DNA of 64,000 nucleotides from a bacterium (GTDB lineage: Bacteria; Electryoneota; Electryoneia; Electryoneales; Electryoneaceae), in assembly GCA_020444265.1 (NCBI GenBank), contig JAHLLH010000001.1:620001-684000 (forward strand), given 5' to 3'. Below the pieces are notes generated by a model that was given only the letters and a program-made list of their open reading frames with translations, was not told where the DNA came from and did not search any database. Below, in pieces: positions 9,451 to 24,655 of the stretch (position 1 is its first letter; each line of letters opens with the position of its first letter). The translations under genes and the position numbers were made by a program.

Positions 9451-9466
9451 AGCAACCCGTGTGCCA
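9451..9466 (-). promoter_or_regulatory. Sigma-54 (RpoN) -24/-12 promoter upstream of flgB
   Basis: Minus strand TGGCAC-ACGGG-TTGCT: GG and GC separated by exactly 10 nt, ~32 nt upstream of the flgB ATG. Confidence 0.85.
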
Positions 9467-22846: not shown

Positions 22847-23124
22847 GGCACCTTTCCCGAAAGTCGGACGAGTATACGCATCCTCCGCGCACCGTGCAAC
22901 GACTAGCTGAGGACCTTTTCTCACATGCGAGCGAACAGACCCCTCACCCCATCGACCTCGCTTACCCGCAATCCCACCGATTCTTTTGCTTCATTCTGCT
23001 ACCAGCACCATAAAACGCTGTTGCGAAATGCTACCTGGTATCGTTCGGATCCCCATTCTACTACTCCTCGCACATCCTACTTACTTGTTGTGATATATAG
23101 TGTTAGCACAAGTGGAGTGATTTC

Positions 23125-23140
23125 TGGCACACCCATTGCT
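23125..23140 (+). promoter_or_regulatory. Sigma-54 -24/-12 promoter
   Basis: TGGCAC-ACCCA-TTGCT with exact 10-nt GG/GC spacing, in an intergenic region; predicted transcription start ~23152. Confidence 0.8.
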
Positions 23141-23151
23141 AAAAGTACGGG

Positions 23152-23369
23152 CAGAGCAAGACACTTTGTTCTTTGATGAGGAAAATAGGTTCGCGTACCC
23201 CTAACAACGTGATCTTATTTCCCACCCAATCCCTACTCTCGGTCAGACCCACTGCTGGGTTCGAGATCCGTGGCCATACGTTGAACCGGCTCCGGCGTAT
23301 GGAGGACATTGAAGCCAGCGTAGGGTTTGAGACCCCCCGATTCCCACAGGGTCGGGGGGTACTTTTTTG
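23152..23369 (+). ncRNA. Candidate structured leader RNA or sRNA (three-way junction plus terminator)
   Basis: P1 AATCCCTAC(228-236)/GTAGGGTTT(320-328); P2 TCTCG(237-241)/CGAGA(262-266) with inner ACCCA-CTGC-TGGGT; P3 TCC(267-269)/GGA(304-306) and CCATACG(274-280)/CGTATGG(296-302); terminator follows (numbers +23000). 5' end inferred from the sigma-54 element. Confidence 0.5.
23332..23368 (+). terminator. Rho-independent terminator
   Basis: ACCCCCCGA-ttcccacaggg-TCGGGGGGT followed by acTTTTTT. Confidence 0.85.
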
Positions 23370-23539
23370 CCCAATTCCGAAAAGAAACAGAGTTGCGTCA
23401 GATTAAAGCGACTCAATCTCTAATAAACTCCTAAAGATTCCTGTCTCTCTATTGCCCCTGAAATTTAGGTACTCCTATCTTCTGCTTAATTGTCAGGTTC
23501 CCGCACACAAGGCCCCCCCGCAGCCTACCTGGAGGATTC

Positions 23540-24655
23540 ATGAACAAGGCGTTCGCCGCCCTTGCCGTACTCTATCTGTTTGTGCTGGTTCTTTCCCTTT
23601 CGGGAAACACATACGCACTACCTGAGTATGGGGTTCGTTACGGACAAAGCTGTCAGCTATGTCATTATAGTGTGACCGGTGCTGGTGCTCGTACCCTCTA
23701 TGGCGCCCAGTTCTTCAGTTATACAGATCTACCGGCTAACCCCTTGGATTTCAGCGAAATTGGTGAAATCAACCCGATGATTTCCGACAATCTGCAGGCA
23801 GGATTTGATTTCCGAACCTTTTATTACGCCTACGACGAGAATAATCTCGAAGCGGATCAGAATTCCTTCCTGACGATGCAAGGTGACATCTACTTGACAT
23901 GGCAGCCTGGTGACCGGACCATTGTCGCCTTCGACAAAGGGCTGCGAAACACCTTCGAAGCCTATGTTCAGACCCAGGCACTTCCGGGTGCGATGGCAGC
24001 CAAAATGGGCCGTTTCATGCCTAATTATGGCTGGCGTTTTACCGATCATACCGCCTATGTCCGTCAGTTCACTGGCTTTGGTGGAACTCAAGGGGTCGGC
24101 GGTGAGGAAGATGGATTCGAAATAGGCCATTTCGATGAACGTTGGGAATTGTCCGCAGCTGTCACCAATGGTCCAGTTGCCGGACCTGTGGATGGCAATG
24201 AGGGAAAAGCGTTCACCTCCCGGATTGCGAAACGATTCCACTTCAGCGATATGGGACTTACGTTGGGCGGGAGTTACCGCTATGCTGAGTTTGGAAACGG
24301 TGGAGCGCCAAATCGTCGCCTGGCAGGCGCGTTCTACGGTGTCAGCCTGGGCAAACTTACCCTTTTGGGTGAAGTCGATGGGATCCTCACAGATGAAGCA
24401 GGCAGCTCGACAAAAAGTGGGTATGTGGCAACAAACCTCCTCCGCTACGACCTCAAGAAGGGCGTCGCCGCACACACCTCATTTGATTACTACGAACCCG
24501 ACCTCGACCTGGCTTCTGGCCAATTCTGGCGCGGACGAGTTGGGTTTGACTACACGCCGTATGGCTATGTCACCCTGACCCCAATCCTTGAATACAGCAG
24601 CGATCCAACGTATGAAGGTCTTTCAGCACAGTTTCACGTACGGCTTTGGTACTAG
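23540..24655 (+). CDS. Fused monoheme c-type cytochrome / outer-membrane beta-barrel (Cyc2-like porin-cytochrome)
   Basis: Signal peptide, then LPEYGVRYGQSCQLCHYSVTGAGARTLYGAQFF (CxxCH), then alternating aromatic-rich strands ending in ...QFHVRLWY; GGAGG RBS upstream of the ATG. Confidence 0.65.
   Translation: MNKAFAALAVLYLFVLVLSLSGNTYALPEYGVRYGQSCQLCHYSVTGAGARTLYGAQFFSYTDLPANPLDFSEIGEINPMISDNLQAGFDFRTFYYAYDENNLEADQNSFLTMQGDIYLTWQPGDRTIVAFDKGLRNTFEAYVQTQALPGAMAAKMGRFMPNYGWRFTDHTAYVRQFTGFGGTQGVGGEEDGFEIGHFDERWELSAAVTNGPVAGPVDGNEGKAFTSRIAKRFHFSDMGLTLGGSYRYAEFGNGGAPNRRLAGAFYGVSLGKLTLLGEVDGILTDEAGSSTKSGYVATNLLRYDLKKGVAAHTSFDYYEPDLDLASGQFWRGRVGFDYTPYGYVTLTPILEYSSDPTYEGLSAQFHVRLWY

Follow-up and report, generated by a model that had tools for sequence, protein, structure and literature searches.

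Comparative evidence for a sigma-54-dependent small RNA family with paired upstream activator sites in Candidatus Electryoneota

Among the small RNAs (sRNAs) known in bacteria, GlmY and GlmZ of the enterobacteria are transcribed from sigma-54 promoters with an NtrC-class activator, and CrcZ and CrcY of Pseudomonas, activated by CbrB and sigma-54, are likewise sRNA genes under the control of an enhancer-binding protein; CrcZ sequesters Hfq through repeated A-rich motifs. The Qrr RNAs of Vibrio are composed of several stem-loops and have about half the length of the rod-shaped Electryoneota RNA that is reported here. Upstream of the sigma-54 promoter of qrr1 in Vibrio fischeri there are two copies of the LuxO site TTGCAWWWTGCAA (PMC10162802). 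As for Electryoneota, a paper examined here that names this group mentions neither sigma factors nor small RNAs, and the RNA family described below may be the first regulatory one to be defined in Candidatus Electryoneota, a phylum of the FCB group.

The stretch of DNA analysed here (the window, 64,000 nucleotides in length) covers positions 620001-684000 of contig C9 in a 4.33-Mb draft genome of this phylum, hereafter G000. Its region 23100-23540 contains, in order, a sigma-54 box, a folded segment, a strong terminator and a cytochrome-porin-like gene; this gene starts at 23540 in the same direction, 170 bp downstream of the terminator, and a search for a Pfam match to it found none. The initial annotation, made from the letters of the window, had placed a sigma-54 promoter upstream of the folded segment and a strong terminator 3 nt after its closing helix, and both are indeed found, as the box TGGCACACCCATTGCT and as a stem followed by a T tract (Table 1). 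The transcript is predicted to start near position 23152. In addition, six of the seven family genomes, that of the window among them, encode RpoN. On the whole, the locus is predicted to be a sigma-54-dependent sRNA gene, with a -24/-12 promoter located at the right distance before a noncoding and terminated transcript in four of four homologs.

Table 1. Positions of the predicted sRNA gene and its control elements in the window
Feature	Position	Strand	Basis
Distal activator site (imperfect), GCTTCATTCTGCTAC	22988..23002	.	8/10 positions of GTWGC-N5-GCWAC; 32 bp from proximal site
Proximal activator site, GTTGC-GAAAT-GCTAC	23020..23034	.	10/10 positions
Sigma-54 (-24/-12) promoter, TGGCACACCCATTGCT	23125..23140	+	Equivalent box in 4/4 homologs; RpoN encoded
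Predicted sRNA transcript, ~218 nt	23152..23369	+	Promoter-to-terminator interval; fold z = -4.9; ends inferred
P1 5' strand of rod, UCAGACCCAC	23243..23252	+	Compensatory changes in homologs
P2 5' strand (GCUGG, UUCGA), middle of rod, less conserved	23254..23264	+	Pairs with 23309-23319
P3 hairpin with conserved apical tip	23274..23302	+	Tip AACCGGCUCCGG at 23284-23295 identical in 4/4 genera
P2 3' strand (UUGAA, CCAGC)	23309..23319	+	Computed fold
P1 3' strand, GUAGGGUUUGA, one bulged A	23320..23330	+	Computed fold, homologs
Intrinsic terminator, 12-bp stem (23332-23360) then T6	23332..23368	+	Terminator directly after P1 in 4/4 homologs

Of the seven family genomes searched, four carry the RNA, each representing a genus of its own: the window genome and three others, namely G004 (WJJA01000389.1), G003 (JAIOHU010000061.1) and G001 (JAVCCM010000176.1, Ca. 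Electryonea clarkiae); in the other three genomes, all of them draft assemblies, no copy was found. In each of the four copies, a -24/-12 sigma-54 promoter precedes a rod-shaped hairpin whose tip, AACCGGCUCCGG, is invariant, and an intrinsic terminator comes immediately after the hairpin. A plain DNA search of the relatives at E <= 0.001 returned the self-match only. With a relaxed threshold, a 30-base match covering P3 appeared in G004, where a sigma-54 box lies 150 bases before the match, as it does in the window. The tip pattern, allowing up to two mismatches, gave mostly chance matches together with one true homolog, G003, in which sigma-54 box, closing helix and terminator are all present. 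A covariance model made from these three copies detected the fourth one, in G001, at E = 0.014; it has TGGCATACCGGTTGCT upstream, the closing helix CCCCGCG/CGUGGGG, a terminator, and the same tip AACCGGCUCCGG preceded by a 2-nt insertion. When the phylum was scanned with the four-member model, four strong matches (E from 1e-9 to 1e-14) were obtained and nothing convincing beyond them; the weak matches elsewhere fall in coding-like sequence and were rejected. The genomes of about 85,000 species, a set that may leave out records of the window's own genome, were also scanned for the tip with part of P3; among the 14 matches the whole set of features occurs only in G001, G003 and G004. Neither the Rfam scan of the window nor the relaxed scan of the region gave anything but chance matches, none of them at gathering score, in agreement with the initial annotation, which had recognised no known riboswitch consensus. 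By these comparisons the predicted RNA is a new family outside any Rfam family tested, and belongs to the class of sRNA genes controlled by sigma-54 and enhancer-binding proteins. The family, its promoter and its structure are well supported by the comparison, which also shows, at the level of sequence, the boundaries of the gene, its tandem sites, the rod with its tip, the terminator, and the gene's independence from the porin gene.

The shape of the RNA differs from the one first proposed. As a 221-nt transcript, the window copy has a folding energy of -89.2 kcal/mol against -67.1 kcal/mol in dinucleotide shuffles (z = -4.9), which is better than all 200 shuffles, and the z values of the four copies are -4.9 (window), -2.2, -4.1 and -5.6. 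The minimum fold is a rod with P1, P2 and P3 (23274-23283/23293-23302) in line. The initial annotation had claimed a structured RNA with three helices meeting at a junction; what holds is that the RNA is really folded, as seen from the z value and the homologs, and that the P3 hairpin CCATACG/CGTATGG exists (23274-23280/23296-23302, pair probability >0.97), while the three-way junction fails. In the rod, GACCCAC (23246-23252) pairs with GTAGGGTT, giving -68.2 kcal/mol, and the best fold containing the P1 and P2 of the junction reaches -60.7 kcal/mol, 7.5 kcal/mol worse. The P1 drawn for the junction, AATCCCTAC/GTAGGGTTT, does not make nine pairs, having a U-U mismatch inside, and its P2, TCTCG/CGAGA, has a pair probability of 0. 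A three-way-junction aptamer of this kind has in its favour that CCCTAC/GTAGGG and TCTCG/CGAGA are present as strings, and CCCTAC/GTAGGG could take the place of the rod's base for a calculated penalty of about 1.4 kcal/mol, but it lies at a distance from P3 that the homologs do not share. Their spacing and pairing fit the rod, and we regard such an aptamer as extremely improbable. The individual minimum folds, which are free of any alignment, agree on P1 and P3 in every one of the four copies; what the homologs have in common is the rod and not the junction.

Covariation across homologs had been named in the initial annotation as a check on the structure, and it is present, with compensatory changes in the P1 closing helix. 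The numbers come from four sequences, and in the first alignment, anchored by hand, the register of P1 was fitted to the pairing; there, both sides change in six of seven P1 pairs and in two of ten P3 pairs, and 94% of the cells are paired, against 31-47% in slid controls. On this alignment, none of 500 shuffles reached the whole-structure covariation score. MAFFT misaligned P1, and for the search models the sequences were padded with N and shortened by a few bases; the native sequences were later realigned to the model, with both sides changing in five of seven P1 pairs and two of ten P3 pairs. P1 is 96% paired, and RNAalifold, applied to the realigned native alignment, predicted the same helices.

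Comparing the four upstream regions, we found the palindrome GTWGC-N5-GCWAC in two copies before each promoter. In the window, the copies are GTTGCGAAATGCTAC, at -105 relative to the promoter box, and a weaker one at -137; in G004, GTAGCGTATCGCAAC lies at exactly the same distance, -105, with a copy at -138, the pair being 33 bp apart. The copies in G001 are at -80 and -111 (31 bp apart), and those in G003, which are weaker, at -103 and -135 (32 bp apart). The sum scores of such pairs, 31-33 bp apart and with 20 as the maximum, are 18 in G000, 18 in G004, 17 in G001 and 14 in G003; when these sequences are shuffled, such sums are reached 0, 0, 0 and 6 times per 200 respectively, counts that are not independent, as the motif was derived from the same four regions. 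Among 21 other sigma-54 boxes of the window genome, only one exceeds 14, that of a TonB-like gene, which scores 16. When seven genomes were searched for the palindrome together with a sigma-54 box, five places were obtained, three of which are not the sRNA, against one for the reversed control pattern, and this we take as partly independent support for the motif. Candidate sites for an enhancer-binding protein, as in the sigma-54 sRNA class, are thus predicted upstream in all four copies, more weakly in G003. Three other genes have the palindrome as well, 100-126 bp upstream of a sigma-54 box: a TonB-like gene (L148, G000:C16:217399, minus strand), a peptidase-like gene (L156, G001:C113) and a short unknown gene (L155, G005:C44); judged by the shared motif, these genes probably belong to the regulon of the activator that would control the sRNA.

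Sigma-54 boxes were seen at other places as well. In the window, a consensus box at 9451-9466 on the minus strand lies directly upstream of a flgB-like flagellar gene, and another (L140) stands before a flgD-like gene. Boxes directly upstream of a dnaK or Hsp20-like gene are found at L139 and L133 in G000 and at L004 (G013:C235), those of dnaK coming from two genomes that belong to different families; sigma-54 may control heat-shock genes in the phylum Electryoneota. At L152 (G000:C17:26708-26723, plus strand), no convincing gene is seen over the several hundred bases that come after a consensus box, and then there are a terminator-like hairpin and a tRNA-like sequence; this is possibly a second sigma-54-driven non-coding RNA. 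At L149 (G000:C16:365087-365102, plus strand), the leader after the box is strongly folded, contains repeated CATCCCGGGAT and has a T tract immediately upstream of a gene whose product begins MRVAVPSDNE; it is a possible attenuated leader.

The genomic setting decides between the two functions offered by the initial annotation, a ~218-nt sigma-54-dependent sRNA or a riboswitch-like attenuator of the porin locus. The former is strongly supported by the promoter, tandem sites, fold and terminator that recur together in four genera, while the latter is contradicted by the homologs. A cis-acting riboswitch or attenuator of the gene at 23540 would suit the window, where the terminator precedes a co-directional porin gene, but in the three other genera the porin orthologs are on contigs other than that of the RNA, and the gene after the RNA is convergent: groES in G004, a DJ-1/PfpI gene in G003 and an rsmD-like methyltransferase gene in G001. 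Because the homologous RNAs are off the porin contig and face convergent genes, we consider the RNA a stand-alone gene and not a porin attenuator. In these three genera it does not keep a co-directional position upstream of a regulated gene, the Rfam scans gave no known riboswitch class, and the relatives' porin genes have no matching sigma-54 box in the stretches compared. Moreover, no anti-terminator alternative is seen in the window, the terminator having a pair probability of about 1. The attenuator is therefore very unlikely, and the comparison indicates that the porin neighbour in the window is incidental. A short mRNA for a conserved small peptide might likewise be considered, since a reading frame of 66-67 codons runs across the window copy, and the G004 copy has one across it as well. 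These frames, however, differ between the homologs and run through the terminator, that of the window is without a ribosome-binding site, only unrelated short frames occur in G003 and G001, and the changes among copies preserve pairing, not codons; we rejected this reading, which has a negligible probability.

The explanation that we consider likely is a trans-acting sRNA, activated by an enhancer-binding protein and independent of Hfq, which presents the tip as its interaction site. An NtrC-class protein would bind the two palindromes, which lie about 100 and 130 bp before the promoter box, and activate the RNA polymerase holding sigma-54; the ~218-nt transcript would then fold into a long irregular rod (P1, P2, P3) showing the fixed tip, and transcription would stop at the terminator right after the rod. 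Most likely the RNA would act in trans without Hfq, and its tip would block translation by pairing with sequences like GGAGCCGGUU, for instance where these cover a ribosome-binding site. In this scheme we infer transcription itself, the identity of the activator and its signal, the base-pairing action in trans, and the targets. Hfq was not found in the seven family genomes, and the control genomes were positive. The tip is 12 nt long, identical in all four genera with varying sequence around it, and contains CUCC, which is complementary to a GGAG ribosome-binding site. There are nine GGAGCCGGTT sites in the window genome, one of them the sRNA itself; most lie inside genes and one exactly at a start region, L116 (G000:C6:160294-160303, minus strand), where GTGGAGCCGGTTATG is complementary to the tip over 10 nt. 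The L116 gene encodes a DUF1565 domain with a signal-peptide-like (secreted-protein) start and has its own consensus sigma-54 box about 175 bp upstream. It is a candidate target, a lead and not a proof: by our own estimate about 0.3 start-site matches are expected by chance from Shine-Dalgarno composition alone, against the one seen, and among the sites inspected in other genomes there is no start-codon match and no shared target.

The same sigma-54-driven sRNA could instead use its tip to bind a protein, or a second copy of itself via the CCGG palindrome, and so titrate the protein as the CrcZ, Csr and 6S RNAs do. Such a tip would account for the invariance of 12 nt across genera where the rest of the RNA drifts, and it can also adopt the form of a CCG/CGG mini-helix, with a GCUC loop and a bulge whose length varies, which fits G001 best; neither Hfq nor a convincing set of shared complementary targets was found, as this reading would have it. 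But the single complementary start site in the window genome would then lack an explanation, and the partner protein is hypothetical. We hold titration to be possible though on balance doubtful, and pairing of the tip in trans remains the reading that we prefer. Somewhat less likely than titration, but also conceivable, is that a lineage-specific, rod-shaped RNA regulator in a family in which Hfq was not found, driven by an activator with LuxO-type sites, has independently reached a Qrr-like promoter plan, with the 12-nt tip as the sole conserved surface, acting via a partner protein or tip-to-tip dimers.

The precise 12-nt element and the DNA motif provide handles for seeking the partner, the activator and the regulon, and they tie sRNA control to a specific sigma-54 activator site. 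As for the known systems, the Electryoneota RNA differs from GlmY/GlmZ in having no Rfam match, and no sequence or structure in common with them is seen. It is also unlike CrcZ/CrcY: no Rfam match and no titration of Hfq connect the two, Hfq not being found here, and what is conserved is the GC-rich tip of a hairpin. Qrr is the closest case, although the RNA here is unrelated in sequence, comes from another phylum, and does not share the property of working with Hfq, which was not found in the Electryoneota family; in the Rfam library, which we take to include Qrr, Qrr is not among the weak matches, and none is at gathering score. What is alike is the plan of the gene: a free-standing sRNA gene with a sigma-54 promoter, two upstream activator palindromes and a 3' terminator, as in the LuxO/sigma-54 system of Vibrio. 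The LuxO site TTGCAWWWTGCAA shares its TTGC-N5-GCAA spacing with the GTWGC-N5-GCWAC sites (PMC10162802), so that by spacing alone the candidate sites are paired LuxO-type sites before a sigma-54 promoter. The Electryoneota RNA would be a second case, apparently Hfq-free, of the plan known from Qrr, in which a sigma-54 sRNA gene has tandem sites.
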